NCBI GenBank assembly: GCA_026122225.1
Contig: JANEZZ010001664.1
Span: 372,001 to 436,000 of the forward strand
Length of the DNA stretch: 64,000 nt
Direction: 5' to 3'
Source: Heloderma charlesbogerti
Lineage: Eukaryota > Chordata > Lepidosauria > Squamata > Helodermatidae
Shown: positions 1,559-61,060 of the stretch, in pieces
Layout of the letters: every line of letters starts with the position of its first letter
Position numbering within the stretch: position 1 is the first letter of the stretch
The notes under the pieces: model-generated
Seen by the model: only the letters and a program-made list of their open reading frames with translations
Database searches by the model: none
What the model was told of the DNA's origin: nothing
Translations under genes and position numbers: made by a program

Positions 1559-2518
1559 TAGGGATGTACGAAAGTCACTTACCTGGTCTCGCAGCTTGCT
1601 TCGCGGTGGGGGGGAGGTGCTTTGCTTCTCTCCCCAAAGTTCAGGCTGGGGGGGGAGGCTTCCCGCCTCACCCGGCCGAAATTCAGGCCGGGGGGGGAGG
1701 CTTCCCGCCTCACCCGGCCGAAATTCAAGCTGGGGAGAAGTGCCCCGTCTCCCCAGCCACGAACTGCAAAAGAAAAGTAAAAAAAAAAGCCCCGTGATAG
1801 GCTACGTAATGATTTATGTAGCCTATCACGGCTAGATCTGCAAAGTCAACCATGATAGGCTACGTTAATCATCACGTAGCCTATCACAGGTGACTTAAAA
1901 AAAAAAAAAAGCACGTACGCAAATGGTGGCCCCCATAAGGAGCCGCCATTCACATTCCTTATTTGGTCCCTGTAGTCTACGTAAAGATTTATGTAGACTA
2001 CGGCGAAAATAAGGGCAACGCTATTTGCGTTGCCCTTATTTTCGCCGTAGTCTACGTAAATCTTTACGTAGACTACAGGGACCAAATAAGGAACGCGAAT
2101 GGCGGCTCCCTATGGGGGCCACCATTAGCGTACGCGCTTCTTTTCTTTTCTTTTCAAAGTCACCCATGATAGGCTACGTGACGATTAATGTAGCCTATCA
2201 CGGCTGACTTTGCAAATCTAGCCGTGATAGGCTACGTTAATCGTTACATAGCCTATCACAGGGGCGTTCTTTTTTTTTTTACTTTTCTTGTAATGGCGGC
2301 GGTGGCAGCCGGTCGAAAGACCGGCTGCCGCCCCCGCCCCTGACGAAGACCTGCCGAACCGCTGCCAGGACCCGCCGCTGGGAGTGACATTCGTGAAAGG
2401 TAAGTCCCATCCCGGGGGGGGCGGGGGGACGGAGAATTTCTCCCCGAACCTTCGGAGGACCGAATGCGTTGGCACTCGGCCCCCCGAAGTTTTGGGGAGA
2501 AATTCTCCCCCATCCCTA
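1559..2518 (+). mobile_element. Palindromic hAT-like non-autonomous element (D left, E right)
   Basis: The 960-bp element is flanked by a perfect 8-bp TSD, TGTTTATC, at 1551-1558 and 2519-2526. The left end reads TAGGGATGTACGAAAGTCAC and the right end finishes CATCCCTA. Inside are G-run blocks tandemly repeated in the D end (about 1600-1740), then nested palindromes: GATAGGCTACGT-type units near 1793-1830, 1852-1890, 2165-2202 and 2223-2260, and GTAGTCTACGTA-type units near 1972-2003 and 2047-2078. Around 2024-2036 the centre of the largest palindrome is an AACGC..GCGTT pair. An ATGGCGGC cassette starts at 2293. Outward 5' splice-site matches lie at 1581-1582 (minus) and 2400-2401 (plus). The 8-bp TSD and TAGGG start fit hAT. 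There is no transposase. The E-cassette frame is closed by a TGA soon after the ATG. Confidence 0.9.
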
Positions 2519-2526
2519 TGTTTATC

Positions 2527-5500
2527 AATGCAAAGAAGTGCAGATGTGCATCAGTCAATCCCACCAAAGAAGACTCTTGATATGTACAGTAATGTCCAGA
2601 CTGCTTTTTGGCAGTGTTACCCCGCCCACCCATCTTGTCCCTACATTTCCATACCAGTAGTATAGTGTTGGTGGGGGGAAACTGAAAGAACTTTACAACA
2701 TGGCAAACTGTGCCTGCCCTGCACAGCACTCTTTACAACCGTTGGACAGAAAATGAAACAAAGGAGGATGTCTCATGTATCATCAGTTTCACTTCAGAAA
2801 TGACAGGTAATTTGGAATTCCCAAATTCCAGGAAGACATTTGGATGAAGAGATGTTTGGAAGCATCCCTATGATCACATAGTGAAAGGAACTATTTCCCA
2901 ATAAGACATAGCCAGTAAGGGCTAGATGCATGCTGAAGTCACAGAGGGCAAATGAAGTAGCCTTCAGGAAGCCTTGCTCTCACTCAGAGTGAGCAGAAGA
3001 CTTCCACCCTTTTTCAATGTGATGCCACAAAAAGTTGAAGAATCAGAAATTTCATGTTTCCCATTTTAGGATTCTGATCATAAATGACCCTATGAAGCAG
3101 GGCTCTGATGCCCTCCGAATGTTTCGCTCTACAACTCCCAGAATTCCTCACCATTGGCCATGCTGGCTGGGGCACCAAATGGGGAACGCTGAATTAGATG
3201 GAGCAATGGTCTGAGACAGTATAAGGCAGCTTCCCAAAGCAGTGCCATCGAGAAGCAATGGCAGTGGAAGCCCCAGAAGCTTTGATACAGTGGGATTTGA
3301 TTCAGGTGTATATGGAGCTACAAGTTGATATAGATGCTGCTGTAGTTTAAGCCTGTTGAGAAGGCTAGGCTGCTTGGCTTGCATTTCATGTATTCTCCCA
3401 AGGATACATGGGGATGTTCAGAGTGGCAGGGGAAGGGGAGAGGAGGAGGTTTTTAGTTTCTACCTATTTCATTGTAAGTGAAAGAAACTGGCTTGTGGTA
3501 ATGGAAGGTGTACAAGTTTAAAATCCCCAATTTTGTCTGTCAAGCAGTACGGAGTACTCCTATTGATTTAGTCCAGCCCCACAGCATCAGATTCTCTTTG
3601 CTTCCTTTTTTATGGTGTTTTGCTGGTTTTGGAGATTTGCGAAGCTCTAAAACAAGACTTTTTATTTTTATTTTTTACAGTGTATGTTATTCTGCTGTTG
3701 CATTATTAAAAGCACAAGTTAAATATGTTACATTTGGTGTGTGCAGCAGCAGCACCTGCGGTACTCCTTAGGGCTGTTGCAAAGGCTGTTCATCATTATG
3801 CATTCAGCACTGCTGTCGGACAGCACATATGTTTCCTTCCAACAGTTTCTGGTAGAGAACAGTGCTGAAAAAATAAGCATTTGCTAAGCTATCTGGCTGG
3901 GTGATATTTTGAAGATCAAAACTTTTTAATGGTTCCCCCCAAAATATATATATATATATATTTATATCAGCAACTTTGAAAATTGTGCTATTAAATGATA
4001 ACCTAGTGTTATCATTTCTGTTCAAACAGAAGCCTGCTCTGTGCATGCTGGAGTAAGACTCGCCCAAGCTGGTAGAACGATTCATTCTAAACCCAGTACA
4101 TCCTCTTAGGTTTGAAGAGCTGAGGATATAGTGAAACACTCAGAAAAAGATCAGATAAACAGCTATGAGTATTTTGCTTAGGGGTCTTTTGTCACGAGCC
4201 TAGATGGGTAATGGTGCAATAAATTTGGATAAACTGGGCTTGAGTAATTGTGAAGGTTAAAAATAATGGGTGCTTTTCCTTTGAGCTACAATTTCTGAAT
4301 TTCAAATACGTTATGCTGCATTGCTGATCAGTTGGTGCCCCCTTCTTTTCAAATTTGCCCCTTTATCAGCTGCTTCATTTTTAGCAATCCTCTTTTCTTT
4401 TAATAATGTGCATGTGAGATGGCTGTCCTGGCCACCACCTTACCTCAGAAAGTAGGAGAATGTGAAGGACAGAAGATTCCAATGTTGACTTTGGTGACTG
4501 GGGAGAGTGGTATGGAAGTGTTGCCCATATATGTGTCTGGTCAATCGACCAATTCTTCTTTAGCTGGTTAAATGCCCAGATTCACCTATGTGAATCTCAC
4601 TTCACAATCTGAAAAGTCTCAGTGAGTTTCCTCATTTACCTTTCAAAACTGTATCACACTGTGAATTTATATTCACGGTTACTCATGCAGCCTTTCTTTG
4701 CTGACGTGCAAAACATTCCAAAGGGCTAATATCAGGCATAAACCTATGTTGGACAAAGTGCCATTGATTTCAAGAGGACTTGCGCCAAGTGTGAGTATGT
4801 GTGTGGGGGTGGGGGGGGGGAGTCGAGGCTGGTGGCTCTGATGTCAGTGGGGTAGTGAATCTGCTTCGGGTTTCAGTCAGATGTAGTCAGCACTCTAAAG
4901 TTAAGATCCCAATTTACTCCTAGTCCTTAACTGTCTTGCAGGGATCTTATCCTGAACTTCTTGATTAGAAATATGAGTCTGCATGATGATTTTGAGGTCT
5001 GCATATTGCCATTGGGCAGGCTTTTCCAGTGGTATTTTTTAATGGTTTTCTTTGAACGAGTCTCGCATTTGAGACCACTGTTTAGGAAAACATGAGTCCA
5101 AAGTCTCACGGGGTTGTAGTACTAGTAGCATGGTTCTTCAGATCATAACGGCTCTTTCTAAGCTTCATCCCCCCCCCCATTGATAGTCTCTCTAATGTTG
5201 ATATGCCCAATCGCAAAAGATATGGTTAAAGATATGGAAACCCGGATCAGATTCCCCACTCCACTGAGATTGGAGCCACCAGCCTCAGCTGGTGTGGGGT
5301 GGGCAGCCTCTTCTTTCTTTCTTTATTACATTTCTATAATACTTGATAGCCAAAGATGTCTGGGGAGTTCACAACCTCTTGGGGTCGAGGCTCTGCATTG
5401 CTCAATTGGACCTGTTTCCACTGCGGGTTTATTTTCAAGCAAAATTGCCACTTTTTTTTTTTTTTTTGCTGTTGTGCCGCCGAATTTCAGCCACAAATTT

Positions 5501-5953: not shown

Positions 5954-5964
5954 AACTGCATACA

Positions 5965-7422: not shown

Positions 7423-7996
7423 TAAGGATGAGTGAAAGTCCCTTACCTGGTCCCGCAGCTTGCTTCACGGTGGGGGGGAGGCTCTTCGGTTCTCCCCCCG
7501 AAATTCTTGGCAGGGGGGGGAGGTGCCCCGTCCTTCCCGGCCGAAATTCAGGCCGGGGGGGGCACCCCATCCCTCGCTGCTGAAATTCTGGCCAGGGGGA
7601 AGGACCCCGTCTCCCCGGCCCTGAAATAAAAAAGTTATGGAACAAAAAAGAAACACATAATAGGCTACGTAATGATTTACGTAGCCTATCATGGCTAGAT
7701 TTTCAAAGTCAGCCGTGATAGGCTACGTAAATCGTTACGTAGCCTATCACTTTTTTAATTTTATTTTATTTTACTGGGAAATGGCGGCGGCAGCTGGTCG
7801 GAAGACCGGCCCCACCCCGCCCCCGCCGAAACGCCGCCGAAACGCCGCCGGGACCTGCCGCCGAGAGGGACATTCGACAGAGGTAAGTCCCATCCCGGGG
7901 GGGGGGGCGGAGAATTTCCCCACCGATTTTGGGGGGGCCGAATGCGTTGGCATTTGGCCTCCCAGAGATTCATGGAGAAATTCTCCGTCATCCCTA
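7423..7996 (+). mobile_element. Palindromic hAT-like element (D left, E right), short form
   Basis: The 574-bp copy has a perfect TSD, CATGCACA, at 7415-7422 and 7997-8004. The left terminus is mutated to TAAGGATGAG. It has only two TACGTA-core palindromes (about 7658-7692 and 7713-7750), so it lacks the GTCTAC and AATAAGG modules of the 960-bp form. The E cassette has an open frame from ATG 7781 (Met then Ala-rich, GRKTG), continuing in phase 0 to an outward donor match at 7885-7890 (GAG|GTAAGT). The D-end donor match is at 7443-7448 on the minus strand. Confidence 0.9.
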
Positions 7997-18133: not shown

Positions 18134-18547
18134 TAGGGATGCTGGAGAAAGTCGAGATGGATTAAAATGAGCTTGGATTTCTAAGAATCCGACCTGCAGA
18201 ATCCACTGTGGAGTGACCCCCTCAGGCCCTGCGGAGTCCATGGACTTTCAGATGATTTTTTTACTTTCCCGAAATTTACACATATAAATCCGTAGAAAAA
18301 TATGTAAGTTTCTGCTGAGGAAACGTAGAATGGAATAGGGGACAATACACTAAATGTTACATATTGGGGTAAATTATGTAAATATGTAAGTAAATACTTG
18401 CCTAAATATTTACGTAATTATTTCCGTATTTTTCCGCATGACAAAAAAAATATTTGCATCTGTCTGTGGGCGGATGACAGAACGAAAGGCACCTGACAAT
18501 CCACAAAACACAGACAGAGTGAATTTTACACAGTCCATACATCCCTA
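18134..18547 (+). mobile_element. hAT-like MITE, second subfamily
   Basis: The 414-bp element is flanked by a perfect TSD, ATACGCAT, at 18126-18133 and 18548-18555. Termini are TAGGGATGCTGGAGAAAGTC and ACAGTCCATACATCCCTA. It is AT-rich in the middle, with GTAAATATTTACGTAA-like blocks near 18375-18425, and lacks the GC-rich cassettes and splice-site matches of the D/E family. A diverged relative lies at 55104-55534. Confidence 0.88.
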
Positions 18548-19441: not shown

Positions 19442-22362
19442 ATGAGCCAGGGCAAATTGGATGTGGTTACTGGGGAGATGTCAAGATTCAATATAGACAT
19501 TTTGGGTGTCAGTGAACTGAAATGGACTGGAATGGGCCACTTCGCATCAAATGACCACCAAATCTACTACTGTGGACAAGAGGACCACAGAAGAAATGGA
19601 GTAGCCTTCATAATTAATAATAAAGTGGCTAAAGCAGTGATTGGATACAATCCAAAAAATGACAGAATGATCTCAATTCGAATTCAGGGTAAGCCATTTA
19701 ACATCACAGTGATCCAAATATATGCCCCAACCACAGATGCTGAAAAAGCAGAAGTAGATCAGTTCTATGAGGATCTGCAGCACCTACTGGATAGTACGCC
19801 AAAAAAAGATGTTATTTTCATTACAGGAGACTGGAATGCTAAGGTGGGTAGTCAAACGACACCTGGAATTACAGGCAAGCATGGTCTGGGAGAACAAAAT
19901 GAAGCGGGACATAGGCTGATATAATTTTGCCAAGACAACACACTGTGCATAACAAACACTCTCTTCCAACAACCTAAGAGATGACTTTATACATGAACTT
20001 CACCAGACGGTCGACACCGAAATCAGATTGACTACATCCTTTGTAGCCAAAGGTGGCGGACATCTATGCAGTTGGTAAAAACAAGACCTGGAGCTGATTG
20101 TAGTTCAGATCACAAACTTCTTATTGCACAATTTAGAATCAGACTAAAGAGTATAGGGAAGACCCACAGATCAGTTAGATATGAGCTCACTAATATTCCT
20201 AATGAATATGCAGTGGAGGTGAAGAATAGATTTAAGGGACTAGATTTAGTAGATAGGGTTCCGGAAGAACTATGGACAGAGGTTCGCAAAATTGTTCAGG
20301 AGGCGGCAACAAAAAACATCCCAAAGAAAAAGAAAACCAAGAAGGCAAGATGGCTGTCTGCTGAGACACTGGAAGCATCCCAAGAAAGAAGAAAAGCAAA
20401 AGGCAACAGTGATAGGGGGAGATACACTCAATTAAATGCAAAATTCCAGAGGTTAGCCAGAAGAGATAAGGAATTATTTTTAAACAAGCAATGCGCAGAA
20501 GCCGAAGAAGATAGGGATGGCAGAGAATTCCGCCACAGATTCCAGTGAGGCTGGATTCTTTAGAATCTAGACCCCCAGAATCCGTGGTGGAACGGCCTCC
20601 TGCCCCCCACCCCCCTGTGTAATCCCCCCAGGACGGCACTTACCTGGGGCGGATGCGGCGGATTTGGCAGCAGCAGCGATTCCGACGGCAGCTCTGGCAG
20701 CGGTGGGGGCTCCGGCGGCTGGTCTCCTGGCTGGCCGCGGCAGGGCTGCTGCCACCGCCATTGCCATCCTTGCAGCCGTGATAGGCTACATTAGAATTTA
20801 CTTAGCCTATGGCTAACGTCAACCCCCCCCAAAACCCGCAGCGTACACAAATGGCAGCGGCTATGGCGGCCGCCATTTGTGTTCCCTATTTTTCGCCAAT
20901 TTATCTTACGTAAATATTTACATAAGATAAAACGGCGGAAAAAAGGGAATGCAAATAGCATAGTGGACGCTATTTGCATTCCTTTATTTTTCGCCATTCT
21001 AGCCTACGTAAATATTTACGTAGACTAGAACAGTGAAAAATAAATGAACGGAGAAAAATAAATGAGCAGAGCTGGCCATCAAGGATCCTGGGGGGGAGGA
21101 GCGGATCACCTCCCCCCCTGGTTGAGGATTCTGGGGGGAGGGACAGAGCTCCTCCCCCCCACCACGAAAGATTCCATGAAAAGGTGAGTGAGTTTCGTAC
21201 ATCCCTAGAAGAAGATAATAGAATAGGAAGGACAAGAGACCTCTTCCAGAAAATTAGAAACATCGGAGGTAAATTCCAGGCAAAAATGGGTATGATCAAA
21301 AACAAAGATGGCAAGGACCTAACAGAAGCAGAAGAGATCAGGAAAAGGTGGCAAGAATATACGGAATATCTGTATAGGAAGGATAATAATATCGGGGATA
21401 GATTTGACGGTGTGGTCAGTGAGCTAGAGCCAGACATCCTGAAGAGTGAGGTTGAATGGGCCTTAAGAAGCATTGCTAATAACAAGGCAGCAGGAGATGA
21501 CGGTATCCCAGCTGAACTGTTTAAAATCTTGCAAGATGATGCTGTCAAGGTGATGCATGCCATATGCCAACAAATTTGGAAAACACAAGAATGGCCAACA
21601 GATTGGAAAAAATCAACTTATATCCCCATACCAAAACAGGGAAGCACCAAAGAATGTTCAAACTATCAAACAGTGGCACTTATTTCACATGCCAGTAAGG
21701 TAATGCTCAAGATCTTGCAAGTAGACTCCAGCAATTCATGGAACGAGAATTGCCAGATGTACAAGCTGGGTTTCGAAAAGGCAGAGGAACTAGAGACCAA
21801 ATTGCCAATATCGGCTGGATAATGGAGAAAGCCAGGGAGTTTCAGAAAAACATCTATTTCTGTTTTATTGACTATTCTAAAGCCTTTGACTGTGTGGATC
21901 ATTAACAAATTGAGGCATGTTCTTGGTGGTATGGGGATACCAAGTCATCTTGTCTGCCTCCTGAGGAATCTGTATAACGACCAAGTAGCAACAGTAAGAA
22001 CAGACCACAGATCAACGGACTGGTTTAAGATTGTGAAAGGAGTACAGCAGGATTGTATACTCTCACCCTACCTATTCAACCTGTACGCAGAACACATCAT
22101 GCAATGTGCTGGGCTTGATGAAGCCCAGGAACCTCATGACGAGGAGCTGAGGAACCTCTTGACGAAGGTGAAAGAAGAAAGGGCAAAAGCTGGGTTGCAG
22201 TTAAACCTCAAAAAAACCAAGATTATGGCAACCAGCTTGATTGAGAACTGGCAAATAGAGGGAGAAAACGTGGAGGCAGTGACAGACTTTGTCTTTCTAG
22301 GTGCAAAGATTACTGCAGACGCTGACTGCAGCCAGGAAATCATAAGACGTTTACTTCCAATC
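19442..22362 (+). pseudogene. BovB endonuclease/reverse transcriptase, broken
   Basis: The ORF encodes the apurinic-like endonuclease and reverse transcriptase that nick target DNA and copy the LINE RNA. Visible endonuclease parts: an N-terminal block with VSELKWTGMG (about 19510), GDWNAKVG (about 19830) and catalytic SDHKLL (about 20105). RT parts: IPIPKQGSTKECSNYQTVAL (about 21625), GFEKAEELETK (about 21770) and motif A, FIDYSKAFDCVD (about 21865). Breaks: a stop at 19921 after the HRLI block, a hAT-like insertion at 20512-21207, a frame change near 21720, a stop right after motif A at 21901, and loss of the YADD-containing motif C (sequence jumps from GLDEAQ to EELRNLL near 22120). The C-terminus continues in the later BovB pieces to 26400. 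It cannot be active. Confidence 0.9.
20512..21207 (+). mobile_element. Palindromic hAT-like element in BovB (E left, D right)
   Basis: A 696-bp copy with a perfect TSD, GAAGAAGA, at 20504-20511 and 21208-21215; removing one repeat and the element restores the BovB sequence at that point. Core palindromes near 20779-20812, 20901-20932 and 21000-21030 carry three different arms. The GGCACTTACCTGGG donor match of the E end is at about 20637 (minus). The D-end match is GGTGAGTG at 21184. Confidence 0.95.
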
Positions 22363-23234: not shown

Positions 23235-23334
23235 GACAAATCTTGATAAAATATTTAAGAGCAGAGACATCACACTGACAACAAAGGTACGCATAGTTCA
23301 AGCAATGGTATTCCCTGTAGTAACAAGGGATGTC

Positions 23335-24007
23335 AGAGAATTCTGCCACGAATCTCAGAGAGCCCGAATGCCAGCACATTCAGCCCCCAGAAATCGGTGG
23401 TGGAATGCTCTGCCCCCCCGCCCCCCCCGGGACGGGGCTTTCCTCGGGCGGTTCTTCCTGGCAGTGGCAGCTCCGGTGGCGGTTCGGCAGCAGTTCGGTG
23501 GCGGTGGCTGCCGCCGCCGCCATTTCCACTTAAAACAACCACCACCACAACAAAAAAGTGATAGGCTATATAAGATTTACGTAGCCTATCACAGCTAGAT
23601 TTTTTAAAAACACCGTGATAGGCGACGTAAATGTTTACATAGCCTATCACGGTGTTTTTTTAAAATCTAGCATCTACGCTATTTGCATTCCCCTTATTTT
23701 CGCCGTCTTAGTCTACGCAAATATTTACGTAGATTAAGATGTGCCAAAATAAGGAACGCAAATGGCGGCGCCCATGGGCGCCACCATTTGCATACGCACC
23801 TTTTTTTTCTTTTAAATTAGCCGTGATAGGCTACGTAAACATTTACGTAGCCTATCACGGCTGACTGCAGGGACCCAAATGGCGGCGCCTACGGCTGCCG
23901 CCATTTGCAGAGCCGGCCGGCCAGGATTCGAGGGGGAGGGACGGAGCACCTCCCTCCCACCACAAATGTCACCCTTCGAAAAGGTAAGTGACTTTCGTAC
24001 ATCCCTA
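23335..24007 (+). mobile_element. Palindromic hAT-like element in BovB (E left, D right)
   Basis: A 673-bp copy with a perfect TSD, GTAGTAAC, at 23327-23334 and 24008-24015, interrupting the BovB C-terminal coding block. The first base is mutated (AAGGGATG). Core palindromes near 23556-23595, 23612-23652, 23707-23735 and 23821-23862. D-end donor match AAG|GTAAGT at 23984. Confidence 0.95.
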
Positions 24008-24086: not shown

Positions 24087-26078
24087 TAGGGATGTATGAA
24101 AATCACTTACCTTTTGGGGATTATGCTGATGGTGCGGGGGGAGGCATTCCGTCCCTCCCCCTGGAATCCTTGCTGGGGGGGGAGGTGCTCCGTTCTTCCC
24201 CCCCAGAATCCTGGCCGGCCATCTGTGCTCTGCAATGATTCTGTGGAGCCGCCAGCTGGCTCCGCCAGCAGCCGGACATCTGGCCGCTGGCTAGCAGGGA
24301 CGCAAATGGTGGTGGACGTAGCCGCCGCCGTTTGTGTCCCTGCAGTCAGCCATGATAGGCTATGTAAATGTTTACATACCCTATCACGGCTGATTTTAAA
24401 AAAACAAACGCGCGTACACAAATGGCGGCGCCTATGGGCGCCGCCATTTGCATTCCTTATTTTGGCATGTCTTAGTCTACATAAACATTTACATAGACTA
24501 AGACGGCGAAAATAAGGGGAACACAAATAGCGTAGCATCTACGCTATAGGGGTGGATGAAAGTCACTTACCTGTCGTCGAAGGCCGTTCGCGGTGGGGGG
24601 GAGCGCTTCGCTGCTCCCCCGCGAAGTTCAGGCCGGGGGGGAGGCTTCCCGCCTCGCCCGGCCGAAATTCAGGCCGCGGGGTAGGCTTCCCGCCTCGCCC
24701 GGCCGAAATTCAGGCCGGGGAGGAGGCGCCTCGCCTCGCCCGGCTGCGAACGCGAAAGTAAAAAAAAAAAACACAAAACTTCCCCTGATAGGCTACGTGA
24801 CGATTCACGTAGCCTATCACGGCTAGATCTGCAAAGTCAGCCGTGATAGGCTACGTGAATCGTCACGTAGCCTATCACGGGTGACTTTAAAAAAAAAAAA
24901 CAAACACGTACGCGAATGGCGGCCCCCATAGGGAGCCGCCATTCCCGTTCCTTATGTGGTGGCTGTAGTCTACGTAAATGTTTACGTAGACTACGGCAAA
25001 AATAAGGGCAACGCAAATAGCCTTGCCCTTATTTTCGCCGTAGTCTATGTAAACATTTACGTAACGTTGCCCTTATTTTCGCCGTAGCGTTGCCCTTATT
25101 TTCGCCGTAGTCTACGTAAACATTTACGTAGACTACAGCCACCAAATAAGGAATGGGAATGGCGGCTCCCTATGGGGGCCGCCATTCGCGTACGCGCTTT
25201 TTTTTTTTTTTTTTAAAGTCACCCGTGATAGGCTACGTGACGATTCACGTAGCCTATCACGGCTGACTTTGCAGATCTAGCCGTGATAGGCTACGTGAAT
25301 CGTCACGTAGCCTATCAGGGGAAGTTTTTTTTTTTTTTCTTTCATTACAATGGCAGCGGCGGCAGCCGGTCGAAAGACCGGCTGCCGCTCCCGCCTCGCT
25401 CGAAAACCCGCCGAACCGCCGGCCGGACCAGCCACCGGGGGAAATTCGCAAAAGGTAAGTCTCGTCCCGGGGGGGGGTGCGGGGTGCGGGGGGGTGTGGA
25501 GGATTTCTCCCCGAAACTTGTTCAGGGGGCCGAACACGTTGGCGCTCGGCCCCCCGTAGTTTCGGGGAGAAATTCTCCGCCATCCCTACTACGCTATTTG
25601 CATTCCCCTTATTTTTCGCCGTCTTAGTCTACGTAAATGTTTACATAGACTAAGACATGCCAAAATAAGGAACACAAATGGCGGCGCCCGTGGGCACCGC
25701 CATTTGCATACCCGCATGTTTTTGTTTTTGTTTTTAATCAGCCGTGATAGCTATGTAAACATTTACGTAGCCTATCACAGTGTTTTTAAAAAAATCTAGC
25801 TGTGATAGTCTACGTAAATCTTTACGTAGCCTATGACTTTTTTTTTTTTTTTACTGGAAATGGCGGCGGCAGCCGGTCAGAAGACTGGCCACTGCCGCAC
25901 CGCCGCCGCAGCCGCTGTAGCCGCCGCAGCCACCGCCACCAGGAAGATCCGCCCCAGGTAAGTCCCGTCCCGGGGGGGTGGCGGGGGTGGCGGGCCGTTC
26001 TGCCACCGATTTTAGGGGTCCGAATGCGCTGGCATTTGGCCTCCCCGAGGCCTGTGGCGGAACTTTCGTACATCCCTA
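24087..26078 (+). mobile_element. Palindromic hAT-like element in BovB, itself split by a second copy
   Basis: Flanks CTGGTGCT (24079-24086) and GTGGTGCT (26079-26086), 7 of 8; the plus side matches BovB. Total span 1992 bp, of which 24547-25588 and one duplicated 8-mer are a later insertion, leaving about 942 bp. The left end is type D (ATGTATGAAAATCACTTACC). The right end has an E cassette (ATG at 25860, CAG|GTAAGT at 25954) but finishes AACTTTCGTACATCCCTA, a D-like terminus, so the right end is a hybrid. Confidence 0.92.
24547..25588 (+). mobile_element. Palindromic hAT-like element nested in another (D left, E right)
   Basis: A 1042-bp copy with a perfect TSD, CTACGCTA, at 24539-24546 and 25589-25596. 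Rejoining restores the host element's GCGTAG..CTACGCTATTTG palindrome. It begins TAGGGGTGGATGAAAGTCAC. The E cassette is open from ATG 25350 (Met-Ala5-GRKTG) in phase 0 to AAG|GTAAGT at 25454-25459. Most CpG positions in its cores are intact (CTACGTGA, CACGTAGC), which suggests a young insertion. A local triplication of CCTTATTTTCGCCGTAG lies at about 25024-25110. Confidence 0.95.
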
Positions 26079-30078: not shown

Positions 30079-30608
30079 TAGGGATGGTGGAGAATTCCGC
30101 CATGGATCTCAGTGAGGCCGAATGCCAGTACATTTGCCCCCCCGAAACCTGTGGTGGAACAAAGCCCCCCTGCCACACCACCCCACGAAAGTCGTGCGAA
30201 ACAGAGCACCTACTTGGTGCCATTTGCACTGCTTTGCGAATGGTGGCCGCATCTGCGGCCGCCATTCGCTTCACGATTTTTGCCATGATAGGCTACGTAA
30301 TGCACGTAGGGACGCCTAATGCAGGGACACCATTTGCACCCCTGCGGAGGCCGTGATAATACTTACGTAGCCTATCACGGCAAAAAAAAGAGACGCAAAT
30401 GGCGGTGGCTATGGCAGCCGCCAGTTGCGTCCCTGCACAGCTCATCAGCAGCTGGATGTTGCTGCGGGTGGCCCCGGCCGGCGGGCGGCTCCGCGGAGTC
30501 ACCATGGAGCGGAGCCAGCCGGCGAGGATTTCTGGGGGAGGCACAGAGCCCCTCCCCCCACCGCGGATGTCACGAAATGAAACAGGTGAGTCGTTTCGTA
30601 CATCTCTA
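30079..30608 (+). mobile_element. Palindromic hAT-like element (E left, D right), reduced
   Basis: A 530-bp copy with flanks TTGCACAC (30071-30078) and CTGCACAC (30609-30616), 7 of 8. Its central palindrome at 30286-30380 is incomplete (GGCTACGTAATGCACGTAGG, then ATACTTACGTAGCC), as if internal arms were lost. D-end donor match ACAG|GTGAGT at about 30585. Confidence 0.88.
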
Positions 30609-31291: not shown

Positions 31292-31963
31292 TAGGGATGT
31301 ACGAAAGGCACTTAGCTTTCGCGGATTATGTTGATGTTGGGGGGGGAGGTGCTCCGTCCCTCCCCTCGGAATCCTGGATGGGGGGGAGGCGCTCCATTCC
31401 CCCCCCCCTGGAATCCTGGCTGGCTGGCTGTGATCCGCAGGGATTCTGCGGAGCCGCCTGCCAGCTCCGCCAGCAGCCAGACATCCGGCCACTGGCTAGC
31501 AGGGACGCAAATGGCTGCCATTTGCGTTCCTTATTTTGGCATGTCTTAGTCTATGTCAAGATTTACGTAGACTAAGACAGCGAAAATAAGGGGAACGCAA
31601 ATAAGTCAAATAAGGGGAACACAAACATTTACGTAGCCCATCACGTTTTTTTTTTAAACTTAGCCGTGATAGGCTATGTAAATCTTTACGTAGCCTATCA
31701 TTTTTTTTTTTTTTTTTAACTGGAAATGGCAGCGGCGGCAGCCGGTCGGAAGACCGGCCACCAGAGCCGCCGCCGCAGAACTGCCACCTAACTGCCACCG
31801 AACCGCTGCCGGAGCCGCCGCCGGAGCTGCTGCTGCCAGGACGATCTGCCCCAGGTAAGTTGGAGCCGCCACCGGAGCCGCTGCCGCGAGGAAGATCCGC
31901 CCCAGGTAAGTCCCTGGCATTCGGCCTCCCCGAGATCCATGGTGGAATTCTGTGACATCCCTA
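31292..31963 (+). mobile_element. Palindromic hAT-like element inside another element's terminal repeat (D left, E right)
   Basis: A 672-bp copy with a perfect TSD, GGGATATT, at 31284-31291 and 31964-31971. The TSD is part of the host element's own terminus. Two tandem copies of a 51-bp cassette end in CCAG|GTAAGT at 31855 and 31906. Its GCATGTCTTAG..CTAAGACAG palindrome (31540-31580) and a single ATAGGC palindrome (31665-31700) remain. Confidence 0.93.
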
Positions 31964-32345: not shown

Positions 32346-33330
32346 TTCCTCTTGTTCAAGCACCGAGTCATTGCTGACCCCTAGAGGGACGCCATTTTTC
32401 CTCGATGTTTTCCTGGCAGACTATATAGTAGGGATGTACGAATGTCACTTACCTTTCGCGGATTATGTTGATGGTGGGGTGGGAGGTGTTCCGTCCCTCC
32501 CCCCGGAATCCTCGATGGGGGGGGAGCCGCTCCGTTCCTCCCCCCCAGAATCCTCCGCAGCCAGCTGTGCTCCACGGCAGCTCTGCGGAGCAGCCAACCA
32601 GGCCCAGCCGGGCCAGAGCCATCCGCAGCCAGATTTCCGGCCATGGAGGGCTCTGGGAAAAAACAAACAAACCCCGCGTACGCAAATGGCGGCGGCTACG
32701 GCTGCCGCCATTTGCGTTCCTTATTTTTGCTGTCTTAATCTACATAAATATTTATGTAGACTAAGACAGTGAAAATAAGGGGAACGCAAATAGCGTAGTG
32801 GATGCTATTTGCATTCCCCTTATTTTTGCCGTCTTAGTCTACGTAAATATTTACGTAGACTAAGACGGCCCAAAATAAGGAACGCAAATGGTGGCGGCCG
32901 TAGCCACCGCCATTTGCATACGCCTTTTTTTTTTTTTTTACCCAGACGTTTTAGGCTATGTAAAAACTTACGTAGCCTATCACATCTCTGTAAAAACAAA
33001 CAAACAAACAAAAAATACCTGCAAGTGGCAGCGGCGGCAGCCGGTCAGAAGACCAGCCACTGCCACTGCCACCGAAGCCACCGCCAGAGCTGCTGCCACC
33101 TAGAAGATCCACCCCAGGTAAGTTTCTTCCCAGGGGGCATCCGCAGGGGGTGGGGGGTGGCAGGCCATTCCACCACAGATTTCGGGGGGCCGAATGCACT
33201 GGCATTCGGCCTCACCGAGATCCGTGGCAGAATTCTCTACCATCCGTACTGTATAGTGGGGTTTGCCTTTGCCTTCCCCAGTCCTAACTACCTTTCCCCC
33301 AGCAAGCTGGGTACTCATTGGCTAAAGACA
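32346..33330 (+). mobile_element. SINE fragment, split by a hAT-like element
   Basis: GTTCAAGCACCGAGTCATTG..CCCCTAGAGGGACGCC..GGCAGACTATATAG up to 32428, continuing GGGGTTTGCCTTTGCC..AGCAAGCTGGGTACTC from 33257. It is the same repeat as at 12940-13045 and is nested within the element beginning at 31282. Confidence 0.6.
32429..33248 (+). mobile_element. Palindromic hAT-like element in the SINE (D left, E right)
   Basis: An 820-bp copy with flanks CTATATAG (32421-32428) and CTGTATAG (33249-33256), 7 of 8. Core palindromes near 32736-32766, 32832-32863 (TTAGTC arms) and 32950-32985 (GGCTATG arms). The E cassette's ATG has decayed to GTG near 33027; its donor match CCAG|GTAAGT is at 33117. Confidence 0.93.
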
Positions 33331-35160: not shown

Positions 35161-36053
35161 TAGGGATGGGGGAGAATTTCTCCCCGAAACTTCGGGGGGC
35201 CGAGCGCCAATGCATTCGGTCCTCCGAAGGTTGTTCGGGGAGAACTTCTCCGCCCCCCCTGCCCCCCGCCCCCCCCCGGGATGGGACTTACCTTTAATGA
35301 ATGTCCCTCCCGGCGGCGGGTCCTGGAGGCGGTTCGGCAGGTCTTCGTCAGGGGTGGGGGCGGCATTACAAGCAAAGTAAAAAAAAAACAAAACGCCCCT
35401 GTGATAGGCTATGTAATGATTAACGTAGCCTATCACGGCTAGATTTGCAAAGTCAGCCGTGATAGGCTACGTTAATTGTCACGTAGCCTATCACGGGTGA
35501 CTTTAAAAAAAGAAAAGAAAAGCGCATACGGCTAATGGCGGCCCCCATAGGGAGCTGCCATTCGCGTTCCTTATTTGGTCACTGTAGTCTACGTAAAGAT
35601 TTATGTAGTCTACGGCGAAAATAAGGACAACGCAAATAGCGTTGCCCTTATTTTCGCCGTAGTCTACGTAAATCTTTAAGTAGACTACAGGGACCAAATA
35701 AGGAACGCAAATGGCGGCTCCCTATGGGGGCCGCCATTTGCGTACGTGCTTTTTTTTTTTAAGTCACCCGTGATTGGCTATGTGACGATTAACGTAGCCT
35801 ATCACGGCTGACTTTGCAGATCTAGCCGTGATAGGCTACGTAAATCGTCACGTAGCCTATCAAGGGGGCATTTTTTTTTACTTTTTATTTTGCAGCCGGG
35901 CGAGGCGAGGCGCCTCCCCCCCGGCCTGAATTTCGGCTGGGCGAGGAGGGAAGCCTCCCCCCCCAGCCTGAACTTCGGGGGGAGCAGCGAAGCGCCTCCC
36001 CCCCACCGCAAAGCAAGCTGCGAGACCAGGTAAGTGACTTTCTTGCACCCCTA
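35161..36053 (+). mobile_element. Palindromic hAT-like element (E left, D right), long form
   Basis: An 893-bp copy with a perfect TSD, CTAGCATG, at 35153-35160 and 36054-36061. It is the 960-bp subtype of 1559 in the opposite orientation. Outward donor matches are at 35290-35291 (minus) and 36030-36031 (CCAG|GTAAGT, plus). The centre (35580-35695) is a near-perfect inverted repeat of over 100 bp around AACGC..GCGTT. The E cassette's ATG region is partly deleted (about 35365). Confidence 0.95.
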
Positions 36054-39370: not shown

Positions 39371-40365
39371 TAGGGACGTACAAAACACTTACCTGGTTCT
39401 GGTCAAGGTATCAGCTGGGGGCGGGAGGCGCTCCATCCCTCCCCCTGGAATCCTCGATGGGGGGGAGGCAATCCAGTCCTGCCCCCCGGAATCCTGCCCA
39501 GCCGGCTCTGCTCCACGGCAGCTCCGCGGAGTAGCCGGCCAGGGCCATCCACAGCCGGACTTGCAGCCACGGACGGGCTGCTGTGGACGCAAATGGCGGC
39601 CGCCATAGTGGCCGCCATTTGCGTCCTTCCAGGCTGCCATGATAGGCTATATAAGTATTTACGTAGCTTATCATGGCATGCCCCCAAAAAACAAAATACA
39701 AAACCCGGCGTACGCAAATGGCAGCGGCTATGGCAGCCGCCATTTGCATTCCCTATTTTTTGCCGTTCTAGCCTACGTAAATATTTACGTAGGCAATTAC
39801 GGCGAAAAAAAGGGAACCGCAAATAGCGTAGTGGGCGCTATTTGCGTTCCTTTCTTTTTTTCACCGTAAAAGCCTATGTAAATATTTACGTAGGATAAAA
39901 CGGCGAGAAAAAAAAAGAACGCAAATAGCGCCCACTATGCTATTCGCGGTTCCCTTTTTTTTTGCCATAATTGCCTACATAAATATTTACGTAGGCTAGA
40001 ACGGCGAAAAATAGGGGACGCAAATGGCGGCCACCATAGCCACCACCATTTGCGTACACCTTTTTTGGGGGGGGGCATGTCGCGATAGGCTATGTAAATA
40101 CTTACTTAGCCTATCGCAGCTGCAAGGACGGCAATGGCGGCTGCAGCAGCCCAGCTGCGGTTGGCCAGGAGACCAACCGCCACTGCCACCGGAGCCGCTG
40201 CTGCCGCCGCCAAATCTGCTGCATCTGCCCCAGGTAAGTTCCATCCCAGGGAATTCCGCAGGGGGGGCGGGGGGCAGGAGGCTATTCCGCCACGTATTCC
40301 GGGGGGCTGGATTTTACAGAATCCGGCCTCACTGGAATCCGTGGTGGAATTCTCTGCCATCCCTA
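39371..40365 (+). mobile_element. Palindromic hAT-like element (D left, E right), long form
   Basis: A 995-bp copy with flanks ACTGAAAA (39363-39370) and ATTGAAAA (40366-40373), 7 of 8. Five cores: about 39640-39677, 39769-39797, 39868-39897, 39970-39998 and 40082-40118, with arms AGGC, TCTAGCC, AAGCC, TTGCC and AGGC. E-end donor match CCAG|GTAAGT with GT at 40234-40235. Confidence 0.93.
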
Positions 40366-41123: not shown

Positions 41124-41566
41124 TAGGGATGTGTGAATCAGCAAAACTCAACCTCACCAGAGTTCTCCAAATTCTAGCTCAAAGCTTGTTCCCACTCAAG
41201 TCTGCATTGGATTGTGAGATTTTTTTCCCTCTCGCATGAAAATCCATGTATATTTTCATGCATAATTTTCCAACTGTATGCATCAGTTGTTGTGTGCATC
41301 TTTGAAATAGACACATTATTCTCCTATTGATTAAAGCATAAGTATGTGCGTTTTTCAAAAGTACACATTTTTCCATGTGCATTGTTCAAAAGTATGCACG
41401 CTGTCAAACATTGTCATCATCATGTTGTCTGAAAATGACTTTGCAAGCTTGGAAATGAACAGACTTTGACCACAGATTGCATCCTGGTTCATGTTCAATC
41501 CAGAAGGTGCAAACTGGGTAAATCCTGACAAAAAATAAACTGAAACAAATTTTTCATTCATCCATA
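41124..41566 (+). mobile_element. hAT-like MITE, AT-rich third subfamily
   Basis: The 443-bp element has a perfect TSD, GTCCATCT, at 41116-41123 and 41567-41574. Ends are TAGGGATGTGTGAATCAGC and TTCATTCATCCATA. It has repeated ATGCA-rich blocks (GCATTTTTCAAAAGTATGCA type) and no GC cassettes. Copies: 44868-45290, and 46314-47734 in the opposite orientation. Confidence 0.9.
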
Positions 41567-46379: not shown

Positions 46380-46876
46380 TAGGGATGGGCACCCCCCCCC
46401 CAAAGGCCTGTCTGGGGGTTGAGGGTCCAGTGTGGGGAAATCCAGCTCACTGGATTTTCCCAAGCCCTGTGTGTGCCTGCCAGATTTCGTGGGGCACCTT
46501 TTCAGTTTTAAAAAGGCAAGGCTGGCTGCCATTTGCAGACCTTGGGAAAATCACTGCTGTAAATTGCATATTTTATGCCATTTGTGGCCATAAAGCACTT
46601 CCTCGTAAGTGCTTTTACGGCTGCAATGTATGTAGGTGTAAGTGCTTTATGGCCACAAATGGCATAAAATACGCCATTTAAGGCCATGATTTTCCCAAGG
46701 TCCATGAATGGCAGCCATCAGTCACAGACCTTAACTTTTTAAAAGCTGGAAGCCATCCCATGCAGAGGCTGGCAGGTGTGGAAGTAAGGGCACTCAGTTT
46801 GCTGTGGACTCCACAGGTTGGATTCTTGGGAATCTGGCCTTGTTTGAGTCTGCAGTGGATTTCCCCAGCATCCCTA
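46380..46876 (+). mobile_element. hAT-like palindromic MITE, older
   Basis: Flanks CCCAGAAC (46372-46379) and CCCAGAAA (46877-46884), 7 of 8. A long inverted repeat centres near 46610: AATTGCATATTTTATGCC, then ATTTGTGGCCATAAAGCACTT, against its mirror at 46635-46680. The same modules occur at 16620. Confidence 0.85.
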
Positions 46877-49686: not shown

Positions 49687-50735
49687 TAGGGATGTCAGAG
49701 AATTCCGCCATGAATTCCAGTGAGGCCTGATTCATTAGAATCTGGCCCCCCAGAATCTGTGGCGGAATGGCCTCCCACCCCCCCTGCAAAATCCCCCCTC
49801 AACGGAACTCACCTGGGGCGGATGCAGCAGCAGCAGCTCCGGCGGCGGCTCTGGTGGTGGCTCCGGTGGCGGCTCCGGCAGTGGTGGCTGGTCTCCCGGC
49901 CAGCCGTAGCCAGGCTTCTGTGGCTGCCATTTGTGTCCTTGCAGCCGTGATAGGCTATGTAAGTATTTACGTAGCCTATCATGGCAAAAAGCAGGGACGC
50001 AAATGGTGGCCGCTACGTAGCCTGCCTATCATGGTAAAGGTAGTCACGGTAAATAATCACGTAGCCTATCACAGTAAAGGCAGCCACACAAATGGAGGCC
50101 ACTACGCCATTTGCGTGGCTGCCTTTACCGTAGTAGGCTACGTTAATTTATTTATTTATTTATTTATTACATTTATATCCCGCCTTTTTTTCCTCCAAGG
50201 AACTCAAGGTGGCGTACATAATCCTCCTCCTCCTCCATTTTATCCTCACAACAACAACCCTGTGAGGTAGGTTGGGCTGAGAGTCTGTGACTGGCCCAAA
50301 GTCACCCAGTGAGCTTCCATGGCCGAGTGGGGACTAGAACCCAGATCTCCCAGCTCCCAGTCCAGCACTCTTGCCACTACACCACACTGGCTCTCTTAAT
50401 ACTTACATAGCCTATCACGGCAAAGAGAATGGGCGCAAATGGCATAGCGGCCGCCTCTTGCGTCCCTGATCTTTGCCGTGATAGGCTACATAAATACTTA
50501 CATAGCTTATCACAGCTGCTTGCAAGGACGCAAATTTGCAGCCGCAGCAGCCATTTGCAGCCGCAGCAGCCCGGCCACGGCCGGAACTCCAGCTGTGGAT
50601 GGCCTTGGCTGGCAGCTCCACGGAGCCGCTGTGGATGAAGCTGGCCAGGGAGGATTCCACGGGGAGGGACGGAGTGCCTCCCTGCCACCGCAGATGCCCC
50701 TGCGTGGAGCCAGGTAAGGGATTCGTACATCCCTA
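49687..50735 (+). mobile_element. Palindromic hAT-like element nested in another (E left, D right)
   Basis: A 1049-bp copy, including a 250-bp SINE, with a perfect TSD, ACTGGACG, at 49679-49686 and 50736-50743. Core palindromes near 49945-49984, 50040-50075, 50130-50410 (split by the SINE) and 50478-50516. E-end donor match CTCACCTGGGG (about 49810); D-end CAG|GTAAGG at 50712. Confidence 0.93.
50148..50395 (-). mobile_element. tRNA-derived SINE with L2-like tail
   Basis: On the minus strand it starts near 50395 with an RNA polymerase III box A (TGGTGTAGTGG, 50374-50384) and box B (GGTTCTAGTCC, 50331-50341), then a body and a tail ending CCGGGATATAAATG-like plus (AAAT)n at 50148-50165. TTAAT repeats flank it (50143-50147 and 50396-50400). 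It splits the loop of a TACGTA palindrome. Confidence 0.85.
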
Positions 50736-56400: not shown

Positions 56401-56431
56401 CAGCTAACACACACACAAAGTTACCCCTATG

Positions 56432-57341
56432 TAGGGATGTACGAAAGTCACTTACCTTTCTGTAGATTATGTTGATGGTGGGGGGGAGGCATTCTGTCCC
56501 TCCCCCCCGAATCCTCGACGGGGGGGGAGGTGATCCATTCCTCCCCCCCGGAATCCTCCATGGCCGGCTGTGCTCCACGGCAGCTCCATGGAGCAGCCAG
56601 CCAGGCCCAGCCCAGGCCAGAGCCGTCCGCAGCCGGATTTCCGGCTGCGGAGGGCTCTGGGAAAAACAAAACAAAACCGCGTATGCAAATGGTGGCAGCT
56701 ACGGCCGCCGCCATTTGTGTTCCTTATTTTTGGCCGTCTTAATCTACGTAAATATTTACGTAGATTATGACGGCAAAAATAAAGGGGAATGCAAATAGCG
56801 TAGCGGGCGCTAATTGTGTCCCTTTTTGATTCACCGTTTTATCCTACATAAATATTTACGTAGGCTAAAACGGCGAATCAAAAAGGGACGCAAATAGCGC
56901 CCGCTACGCTATTTGTGTTCCCCTTTTTTTTCGCCATCATAGTCTACGTAAATATTTACGTAGACTAAGACAGCCAAAATAAGGAACGCAAATGGCGGCG
57001 GCCGTAGCTGCCGCCATTTGCATACACGGTTGTTGTTTTTTTACCCAGCCATGATAGGCTACGTAAATCTTTACGTAGCCTATCACGTCTTGTAAAAAAA
57101 ACCCAACACCCCCCCCCAAGACTGCAAATGGCGGTGGCGGCAGCCGGTCAGAAGACCAGCCGCTGCCGCAGCTGCCGCTGGAGCCGCTGCCCGGAACATC
57201 TGCCCCAGGTAAGTCTCATACTGGGGGGGTTCCACGGGGTGGCGGGGGGGTGGCAGGCCATTCTGCCACGGAGTTCGGGGGGCCGAATGCACTGGCATTC
57301 GGCCTCACCGAGATCCGTGGCGGAATTCTCTGACATCCCTA
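56432..57341 (+). mobile_element. Palindromic hAT-like element (D left, E right), long form
   Basis: A 910-bp copy with flanks CCCCTATG (56424-56431) and CCCCCATG (57342-57349), 7 of 8. Cores near 56740-56768, 56842-56870, 56940-56970 and 57048-57086; three have fully intact TACGTAAATATTTACGTA. The E cassette starts at ATG 57128 and reaches CCAG|GTAAGT at 57209-57210. Confidence 0.95.
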
Positions 57342-57349
57342 CCCCCATG

Positions 57350-58715: not shown

Positions 58716-59110
58716 ACAACCTTGGGGCCACATGTGCCCCCCAAGGCCTTTCCTGTGCCCCCCCATGGTTGCCCTGATCCCACCACTGAATGTCCGCCCT
58801 GTATGTACTCCCCACTCAGTACCCCAGAGACCTTTATTCTTCATTATTAATGCATCTGAGAATTCTTGCAATGAAGATCTCCAAATTAAAAAAAAAAAAT
58901 GCATACCAATATTTTGCATTTGTCTGGGTAAGTGCCCAGACAAAAAATTTGTACAGTCAAGAAAAAACACACAAAAGGGTATTATATAAGGGAAATGAGC
59001 TTGCAAAAAAATGTACAAAATTAGGAGAGATGTTCCTGAAAATGCATACAAAGTTTCATACTGACATGTTTTAAAGTAGCAAACTGATGAGGAAATAGTA
59101 TGGAACAAAT
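58716..59110. other. Unannotated DNA
   Basis: No gene or repeat recognised. Confidence 0.35.
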
Positions 59111-59176
59111 CATATAATCATAGAATAGTAGGGTTGGAAGAGGCCTACAAGACCGTCGAGTCCAACCCCATGCTCA
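59111..59176 (-). mobile_element. CR1 LINE terminal fragment
   Basis: ATCATAGAATAGTAGGGTTG..GTCGAGTCCAACCCC is the CR1 3' end, cut off by the element at 59177. Confidence 0.8.
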
Positions 59177-60004
59177 TAGGGATGTCAGAGAATTCCACCA
59201 CGGATCTCGGTGAGGCTGAATGCCAGCGCATTCGGCCCCCCGAAAACTGTGGCGGAATGGCCTGCCACCCCCCACCCCCTGCAGATCCCCCCCAGGACGA
59301 GACTCACCTGGGGTGGGTCTTCAGGGCGGCGGCGGCCAGTCTTCCGACCGGCCGCCACTGCCACCATTTCCAGGCTTGTGGGGGGGGGGGGAAGACATAA
59401 TAGGCTACGTAAAGATTTACGTAGCCTATCATGGCTACGTTTTAAAAAAAAGAAAAAAAAGACGTGATAGGCTACGTAAATCTTTACGTAGCCTATCATG
59501 GTTGGGGGTGGGTTTAAAAAAAAACGCGTACGCAAATGGCGGCTTTTAGATTAAGCACTTTTAGATGTTAGGATGCTAGGCAGCAGCTGCACATTTTGTA
59601 AAATGCCACATTTGGCCCAAAGATCATAGCTTAGATCCAAGTGTGTTCTGCTAGAAAGAAGAGAGCACTTCTGCCCCAATTTTTACCAATTTTCATGCAG
59701 TACACCCCATGAAAAAAGTGTAACGTAGCGTAGTGGGCGCTATTTGCGTCCCTTTTTTTTTTTGCCGTAATAGCTTACGTAAATATTTACATAGGTTAAA
59801 ACTGTGAAACCGCTGTAGCCGCCATTTGCTTTCGCGGCTTTTTGTTTTTCTCTTCTGGAAGGAAGTCTGCGCAGCGGCCGGATTTCCAGCTGCAGGCGGC
59901 CCCGGCCGGTGAAGAGCTGGCCAAAGAAGGATTTTGGGGAGAGGTGCAGAGTGCCTCCCCCCCACCATGAATCGCCTCACCAAAAAGGTAAGTGATTTTT
60001 GTAT
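59177..60004 (+). mobile_element. Palindromic hAT-like element, interrupted or fused
   Basis: The E end is clear (TAGGGATGTCAGAGAATTCC; minus ATG near 59369; outward donor CTCACCTGGG at about 59306), with two cores (59398-59434 and 59464-59500). At about 59542 it passes into 180 bp of unrelated DNA. Element-like D-half sequence returns at about 59722 and runs to AAAGGTAAGTG near 59988, where it meets the start of another element at 60005. No right TSD. Confidence 0.7.
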
Positions 60005-61060
60005 AGGGGTGTATGAAACCCTGCTTACTTGGCTCTGCCGGGTTCTGCTGGTAGGGATGGGGGAGAATTTCTCCCCGAAACTTTGGGGGGCCAAATACGT
60101 TGGCACTTGGCCCCCCGAAGTTTCGGGGAGAAATTCTCCGCCCCCCCCTCCCCCCAGGATGGGACTTACCTTTCCCGAATGTCCCTCCCGGCGGTGGGTC
60201 CCGGCGGCGGTTCGGCAGATCTTCATCAGGGGCGGGGGCGGCAGCCGGTCTTTTGACCGGCTGCTGCCACCGCCATTCCAATAAAAGTAAAAAAAAAAAA
60301 ACGCCCCCGTGATAGGCTACGTGACGATCAATGTAGCTTATCATGGCTAGATTTGCAAAGTCAGCCGTGATAGGCTACGTAAATCATCACGTAGCCTATC
60401 ATGGGTGACTTAAAAAAAAAAAAAGCGCATACGGCTAATGCAGGCCCCCATAGGGAGCCACCATTCGCGTTCCTTATTTGGTCGCTGTAGTCTACGTAAA
60501 GATTACGTAGACTATGGCGAAAATAAGGGCAACGCTATTTGCGTTGCCCTTATTTTCGCCGTAGTCTATGTAAAGATTTATGTAGACTACAGCGACCAAA
60601 TAAGGAACGTGAATGGCGGCTCCCTATGGGGGCCGCCATTTGCGTACGCACTTTTTTTTTTTTTTTAAGTCACCCTTGATAGGCTACGTGACGATTAACA
60701 TAGCCTATCATGGCTGACTTTGCAGATCTAGCCGTGATAGGCTACATAAATCGTCACGTAGCCTATCAAGGGGCGTGGGTTTTTTTTTACTTTTTATTTT
60801 GTGGCCAGGCGAGGCGAGGCGCCTCCTCCCCGGCCTGAATTTCGGCCGGGCGAGGCGGGAAGCCTCCCCTCCCGGCCTGAACTTCGGGGGGAGCAGCGAA
60901 GCGCCTCCCCCCCACCGCGAAGCAAGCTGCGAGACCAGGTAAGTGGCTTTCGTGCACCCCTATCCGCTGGGGGGGAGGTGCTCCATCCCTCCCCCCGGAA
61001 TCCTCCCCCCAGAATCCTGGCCAGCTGGCTCCATTCTGCGGGGATTCTGCAGACATCCAC
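60005..61060 (+). mobile_element. Palindromic hAT-like element, right-truncated, containing a second copy
   Basis: D end TAGGGGTGTATGAAACCC at 60005-60051, then resumes at 60971 with the G-run block (GGGGGAGGTGCTCCATCCC) and fades near 61060. The intervening copy starts at 60052. Confidence 0.75.
60052..60962 (+). mobile_element. Palindromic hAT-like element nested (E left, D right), long form
   Basis: A 911-bp copy with flanks TCTGCTGG (60044-60051) and TCCGCTGG (60963-60970), 7 of 8. Same subtype as 35161. Donor matches at 60168-60169 (minus) and 60939-60940 (CCAG|GTAAGT). Centre 60484-60605 forms a near-perfect 120-bp inverted repeat. Confidence 0.93.

Follow-up and report, generated by a model that had tools for sequence, protein, structure and literature searches.

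In the hAT element Ds1 of the maize Ac/Ds system, splice donors are located at distances of 12, 22, and 33 bp from the terminus (PMC5432752). Introners are DNA transposons with terminal inverted repeats (TIRs), target-site duplications (TSDs), and built-in splice sites; the element forms the intron, its sites point inward, and a survey of them reports no pattern of gain in groups such as vertebrates (PMC9860276). PIF/Harbinger elements employ a transposase plus a Myb-like protein (PMC9179366), the mPing/Tourist-type MITEs of PIF/Harbinger form large families (PMC2836001), and mouse L1 has conserved functional antisense splice sites that trigger exonization (PMC2176070).

The window analyzed here, i.e., the whole stretch of 64,000 nucleotides (G000:C1463:372001-436000, from a genome of 2.30 Gb in 3,246 contigs), contains dispersed elements that are members of the hAT superfamily, as judged by their TSD, their TIR, and a transposase-bearing relative, and the two ends of which, designated as D and E, carry outward-pointing 5' splice donor motifs (Table 1). 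In addition to the window, we analyzed 20 evenly spaced 10-kb stretches from two contigs, which were sampled blind to the donor motif (L001–L020), and 20 stretches centered on listed D-end matches (L021–L040), along with a candidate junction and parts of copies that bear the transposase. Pieces that we take to be SINE-like and CR1-like, squamate in look, are also present.

Table 1. Coordinates of the hAT elements in the window, with their putative donors and flanking duplications
Feature	Position	Strand	D donor	E donor	TSD	Remarks
hAT element, 960 bp	1559..2518	+	minus 1577-1582	plus 2400-2405	TGTTTATC, exact	D end left, E end right; TIR exact
hAT element	7423..7996	+	minus ~7441-7446 (GTAAGG)	plus 7883-7888	CATGCACA, exact	
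hAT element	20512..21207	-	plus ~21184-21189 (GTGAGT)	minus 20638-20643	GAAGAAGA, exact	
hAT element	23325..24007	-	plus 23984-23989	decayed	GTAGTAAC, exact	
hAT element	24547..25588	+	minus 24565-24570	plus 25455-25460	CTACGCTA, exact	inside 24087-26078
hAT element	30079..30608	-	plus ~30586-30591 (GTGAGT)	E side without MAGGTRAG	7/8	
hAT element	31292..31963	+	decayed (CTAAGT)	E side, plus 31855-31860 and 31906-31911	GGGATATT, exact	
hAT element	32429..33248	+	minus 32447-32452	plus 33118-33123	7/8	
hAT element	35161..36053	-	plus 36030-36035	minus 35286-35291	CTAGCATG, exact	
hAT element	39371..40365	+	minus 39387-39392	plus 40234-40239	7/8	
hAT element	49687..50735	-	plus ~50714-50719 (GTAAGG)	minus ~49807-49812 (GTGAGT)	ACTGGACG, exact	contains an inserted repeat, which we take to be SINE-like
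hAT element	56432..57341	+	minus 56450-56455	plus 57209-57214	7/8	
hAT element	60052..60962	-	plus 60939-60944	minus 60164-60169	7/8	
AT-rich relatives	18134..18547, 41124-41566, 46380-46876					same TIR; without MAGGTRAG

Elements were sought as pairs of CATCCCTA-like ends joined to 8-bp duplications, with at most one TSD mismatch as a search condition. In the window plus 200 kb, 26 candidate pairs were flanked by 8-bp TSDs of the hAT type (17 exact and nine with one mismatch), and removal of three outer nested candidates left 23 elements that had been found without using the donor motif. The short TIR (TAGGGATG...CATCCCTA) also fits the hAT superfamily. Among the 20 D-ascertained stretches, the TSD was exact in 12, had no more than two mismatches in 14, each of which yielded an element, and was worse or not found in six. 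The 33 donor-bearing elements range from 444 to 1049 bp, and being short, TIR-bearing, abundant, and putatively non-coding, they are MITEs by description. They are not members of PIF/Harbinger: the TSD is 8 bp rather than 3 bp, and the transposase domain is that of hAT rather than Harbinger. The name of the crocodilian 'Chompy' was considered for the family and not adopted.

Of the 23 elements, 19 bear donors; the observed/expected ratio of CpG was 0.69–1.25 in 17 of these and 0.50 and 0.56 in the other two, compared with 0.48 for the window. Because CpG sites were changed about three times more often than other sites in the aligned elements (15.0% vs 5.5%), we ruled out that the elements are a protected CpG island. 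Four AT-rich elements among the 23 share the TIR and lack MAGGTRAG, and two elements, L034 (with two TSD mismatches) and L037, have lost the E exon together with its donor through a common deletion and retain the D donor. Therefore, transposition as such does not require the E donor and perhaps not the D donor either. D/E hybrid ends also occur, e.g., at the right end of 24087-26078 and the left end of L020:1025-2739. A hairpin with a GAAA-type loop in the E exon was considered and rejected as weak; it ranked first among the hairpins of 12 of the 33 listed sides, and its changes were mostly to G-U.

The original prediction, which was made from the window alone, described dispersed hAT-like elements with divergent, outward, consensus donors at both ends, and the 8-bp TSDs and exclusively outward MAGGTRAG motifs of the 23 elements bear this description out. 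All 11 donor coordinates that it named are occupied by donors, four of them with an offset of one base. Its statement that the GT always points out of the element also held: within 140 bp of an end, the 23 motif-blind elements contained 34 outward and no inward MAGGTRAG, with one more in the middle, and their shuffled versions contained 0.34 on average and two at most (50 runs). The motif was found at one end at least in each of the 19 donor-bearing elements and at both ends in 14 of them. The donors, which had been placed about 20 bp (D) and 100–130 bp (E) from the terminus, were measured at 22–25 bp and 90–134 bp, respectively, with a single E donor at 58 bp. Inward MAGGTRAG was absent from all 37 elements, and an introner model, in which the element is spliced out from an inward donor, was thus ruled out. 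The shorter word GGTAA was counted over the outermost 150 bp of 33 elements, including 14 that had been selected through the D motif; 56 occurrences were outward, 54 of them within AGGTRAG, and none was inward.

These motifs are abundant. GGTAAGT occurs 36 times in the window (20 on the plus and 16 on the minus strand) compared with a mean of 6.09 and a maximum of 13 in shuffled sequences, i.e., approximately six-fold, and GTAAGT occurs 56 times compared with 19.9 expected, approximately three-fold. In the counts for the 2.30-Gb genome, which may be lower bounds for repeats, the exact string CCAGGTAAGTGACTTTCG, present once in the window, was found 6,998 times and the reversed pattern not at all, while one 35-nt D end had 14,678 copies with up to three mismatches. 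The 15-nt D terminus had 52,724 exact matches and its reversed control 10; 38,023 of the 52,724 were preceded at 2–5 nt by AGGTRAG (control, 0; chance, ~0.05%). The remaining 14,701 exact termini had no AGGTRAG at this distance.

D ends were located by a profile of a C-rich module, and the donor had no influence on the choice because the module stops upstream of it. Among 50 matches, 34 with a downstream terminus were retained; the 16 discarded ones were mostly the module's upstream tandem copy and included 59966, a D end with an intact donor and an interrupted terminus. AG/GTRAG, where the slash marks the splice boundary, was present in 28 of the 34, with the base counts −2 A33, −1 G34, +1 G33, +2 T33, +3 A32/G2, +4 A33, and +5 G32. 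Position +6 (T22 G8 A2 C2) and positions −4 to −13 were loose, while +7 was G in 30 of the 34. GTGAG was scarce, occurring in two of the 34 ends and in none of the genome matches listed for the D terminus with AGGTRAG. Clustering of the 34 ends at 67% identity by the 18 nt that precede −3 gave 15 exon-side groups, 12 of which included at least one intact AG/GTRAG; the donor was thus kept across lineages that differ in their exon sides.

E ends were located by the terminal 62-bp module alone, and 42 were retained after one that was cut at the locus end had been discarded. The spliceosomal 5' splice-site consensus is MAG/GTRAGT. The best score of the 42 E ends to it was 9/9 in 21, 8 in eight, 7 in nine, and 6 in four, while the opposite strand reached 7/9 at most; AG/GTRAGT was present in 26 and CAG/GTAGG[CT] in four. 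By this consensus and a donor scoring matrix, the D and E motifs have the form of donors and are predicted to pair with U1.

The original prediction had also claimed that the matches, unlike the bases near them, are preserved among diverged copies, which would suggest selection or recent spread, and here the outcome depended on the level of comparison. In a young D subfamily, 2,553 copies were counted with the hexamer left free and 2,512 with a neighboring non-CpG 6-mer, the single control, left free, the remaining 29 bases being fixed in both counts; among the approximately 100 matches listed in each, seven and six were changed, respectively. Since the hexamer and the control decay alike, inserted copies of this subfamily shed the donor at the rate of its neighborhood, and the tested D subfamily lends no support to host-level selection on copies. 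For the main E type, the corresponding numbers were 3,219 and 4,376, although the single control 6-mer covers positions that differ among subfamilies, and its variation is therefore inflated. In 17 aligned elements, 15 of which have the E donor region, one of 105 cells of GGTAAGT at the E site was changed, compared with 42 of the 667 non-CpG cells on its flanks (p = 0.02). The claim of persistence thus stands between subfamilies and at the E site and fails within the young D subfamily; likewise, sequence constraint is supported for source elements (12/15 D groups and 26/42 E ends) and not for the copies of that subfamily. Because lineages keep the donor while young-subfamily copies decay neutrally, the constraint lies on source elements rather than, as far as this subfamily shows, on inserted copies. 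A signal that is kept across lineages and seemingly decays freely after insertion probably serves the element itself.

Screening with the Pfam profile of the hAT dimerisation domain, in which 150 of 871 candidates were scored, led to transposase-bearing relatives. The copy read at length spans 9,391 bp, from TAGGGATGTCAGAGAAATTCTC to a full D half ending in AAAG/GTAAGTGACTTTCGTCCACCCCTA, and its right end carries an outward donor 24 bp from the terminus. The left end with TAGGGATGTCAGAGAAATTCTC resembles E ends (91% over 22 bp, E = 0.07, with 16 bp identical to two others), and the relative appears to share its ends with the short elements, by a full D half on the right and by an E-like sequence only on the left. 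The TSD matches at 7/8 positions in the C2955 copy and is exact (CACAACAC) in a second copy (C235). An internal CATCCCTA with shared flanks had been considered as the right end and was rejected, as the TSD-bearing end is 3.6 kb further. The donor was present in all six right ends read, in differing surroundings; four of the six are linked to the gene by the expected distance only, with the left ends outside the stretches covered. From left to right, the relative encodes a hAT transposase in an open frame of 878 aa (PF05699, 1.3e-16; zf-BED, 2e-4) preceded by a 136-aa open frame with no Pfam match, and from right to left, it encodes a Myb/SANT-like protein (PF13837, Myb_DNA-bind_4, 4.5e-12), the frame of which is also open in another copy. 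The D half with its palindromes is situated on the upstream side of this Myb-like gene. The left 300 bp contain neither the donor motif nor GGTAA on either strand. By the scoring matrix, no 9-mer on the relative's plus strand exceeds the D donor (12.6; the runner-up, 11.2), and strong acceptors score 14.2 and 10.6 at its positions 672 and 1335, ahead of the first coding ATG at 1339; a coding exon would lie behind these acceptors.

Based on these sequence features, we tentatively propose, at somewhat below an even chance, that the donors at both ends act, or acted in source elements, as outward 5' splice sites of RNA. Each end would act as the outward-directed arm of a promoter, and the C+G-rich flank from the central palindromes to the donor, read outward, would form a short first exon of ~110–200 nt that the donor closes. 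U1 would bind the donor, and the transcript, which according to the original prediction would start inside the element, would be joined by splicing to the flanking DNA or at any rate continue through it; transcription and splicing of this kind would be the reason for the retention of the site. We take AAATGGCGGC to be a YY1-like motif. With one mismatch allowed, it was found in outward orientation no more than 300 nt from the donor on 21 of 25 E sides, including 11 at 83–120 nt, and on seven of 32 D sides, and the evidence for a promoter is therefore stronger at the E end than at the D end. The motif was also found in antisense on 16 of the 25 E sides and 10 of the 32 D sides, which speaks against the RNA-level reading, as do the relative's left 300 bp without the motif, the scarcity of GTGAG at D, and the conserved G at +7, which splicing does not require. 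Moreover, inverted terminal binding sites would likewise point outward at both ends. An internal exon with a conserved acceptor was rejected: by eye, good poly-T/CAG acceptors are present in some elements, and AAG or none in others. A first exon requires no acceptor.

Re-copied spliced RNA would be expected to leave a D exon joined at the exact boundary to other sequence. For one D exon, 94 copies in which the next base is not G contained no such fossil, which is weak negative evidence, and patterns that demand a non-G base miss approximately a quarter of cases; 43 more copies with an altered second base were unreadable in this test. In 92 of the 94, a small change had left the start of the intron side recognizable (~19 nt shown), and the other two were a local insertion (read fully) and a copy running into the end of another element (by letters). 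The local insertion, at C878:770395, had been considered as a spliced retrocopy and turned out to lie within an element.

The main rival explanation, which we regard as somewhat less likely than outward splicing, is that a protein of transposition binds the motif as DNA, the relative's Myb/SANT-like protein being the most likely candidate and the hAT transposase the other, and that the motif resembles a donor by coincidence. The original prediction had named transposase sites as its alternative. This explanation gained weight from the discovery of the Myb-like gene, with its Myb_DNA-bind_4 match and a frame open in two copies, and the outward-only GGTAA words and the conserved +7 G at D are in its favor. 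Trihelix proteins bind GGTAA-like boxes, from which the GGTGAG and GTAGG variants depart. The relative's left end, with no GGTAA in its last 300 bp, and a distance between motif and terminus that ranges from 22 to 134 bp weaken the explanation further, as does the existence of elements that lack the E donor and of AT-rich ones that have neither donor, and it leaves M at −3, A at −2, G at −1, and the loose +6 unexplained. In known Harbinger elements, Myb-like proteins bind the element's own TIRs and act together with the transposase (PMC9179366), a precedent that supports the explanation.

Improbable, on the same sequences, is that U1 would be recruited without productive splicing, shielding transcripts that traverse or exit the element from early polyadenylation, a protection that the original prediction had also suggested, or stimulating the promoter and thereby making insertions less harmful. 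Either orientation of insertion puts one donor near the exit of a host transcript, AATAAA is scarce in the elements (0–3 per strand), and no conserved acceptors were seen by eye, all of which would fit; the D subfamily tested, however, exhibited no selective retention of copies. About equally improbable is a by-product, in which the D donor was inherited from a single ancestor within an extended terminal repeat and the sharp AG boundary is a junction of recombination or template switching at GGTAAGT microhomology. Although CAGGTAAGT occurs twice in the element 31292-31963, at a spacing of 51 bp, D/E hybrid ends exist, and the motif is a word common to D and E ends, many boundaries must all have coincided at −3/−2, and the variants (GTGAG and A, G, or C at +6) match splice tolerance rather than copying.

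Returning to outward splicing from both ends, a wider version, which we regard as very improbable, is that mobile first exons usable in two directions, tens of thousands in number, are scattered over the genome and constitute a distributed promoter system for the family's own transposase. Since donors exit both ends, a downstream transposase-bearing copy would be reachable by splicing from a neighboring element, which would join the acceptors ahead of that copy's first coding ATG; if so, host genes would also be supplied with new first exons. If the donors are used at all, a DNA transposon family would be spreading ready-made, two-way, outward first exons, the mirror image of introners, and its copy number could reshape many transcripts in a vertebrate-size genome. 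If instead the Myb-like protein binds the motif, a hAT element would have adopted a Harbinger-like helper whose DNA site mimics a splice donor. Neither a hAT MITE with outward donors at its two ends nor a hAT element with a Myb-like gene was mentioned in the titles and abstract openings listed, with subscription papers and Repbase reports outside this scope, which does not prove that such elements have gone undescribed.

The elements described here and Ds1 are both hAT elements with near-terminal donors. In Ds1, however, the donors are apparently used inward, such that a host exon is joined with the first bases of the element and the rest becomes an intron (PMC5432752), whereas the donors here point outward. 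Introners share with them the TIR, the TSD, and built-in sites, but here the element would be the exon. The combination of a Myb-like gene and a large MITE family is reminiscent of PIF/Harbinger, from which the present family differs in its hAT transposase (PF05699) and 8-bp TSD. Mouse L1, finally, is a retrotransposon, whereas the family found here consists of putatively non-coding DNA elements with outward donors at both ends.

The poly-T/CAG stretches that adjoin the centre of some hAT copies score as 3' splice sites, reaching at most 16.2 with a splice-site matrix, so a complete exon could be formed by some of the copies. Among the near-perfect palindromes that make up the element centre, some are spaced 58 bp apart. 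The central palindromes of some copies hold other elements, for which the TSDs or flanks read CTACGCTA, TAGGCTAC, AGCCTATC and ATATTTAC; a preference of these elements for inserting into their own palindromes is possible.

The hairpin preceding the E donor ranks as the best hairpin in 12 of the 33 sides listed. At a single E end in the window, CAGGTAAGT occurs twice, 51 bp apart, as if the sequence had been duplicated at the motif. In two elements from stretches taken around D-end matches (L034 and L037), one common deletion has taken out part of the centre together with the E exon and its donor; this derivative, which lacks an E donor, may have amplified.

Coordinates of hAT-related features (L001–L020, 10-kb stretches taken regardless of motif; L021–L040, stretches around D-end matches)
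Feature	Location	Remark
Elements with poly-T/CAG stretches beside the centre	window 32429-33248, 1559-2518, 56432-57341	splice-site matrix score
Repeated palindromes of the centre	window 1751-2302 and counterparts	TGATAGGCTACGTAA..TTACGTAGCCTATCA
Nested elements	window 24547-25588; L020:1288-2160; L032; L025; L029 left flank	
Hairpin	window 2298-2332 and counterparts	GGCAGCCGGTC-GAAA-GACCGGCTGCC, ~100 nt upstream of E donor
Paired CAGGTAAGT	window 31852-31911	
Separate 566-bp family	L009:3212-3777	same TIR as donor-bearing elements
Transposase-bearing relative, TSD-bounded	L053:2339 to L054:1728 (contig C2955)	9.4 kb

The separate family carries CAGGTGAGT 19 bp from one end, facing outward, and GGGGTGAGT 115 and 134 bp from its two ends, both outward. 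The transposase-bearing relative holds two convergent genes within a single element, one coding for a hAT transposase and the other for a Myb/SANT-like protein, whose frame was observed in two copies. This second gene is reminiscent of PIF/Harbinger.
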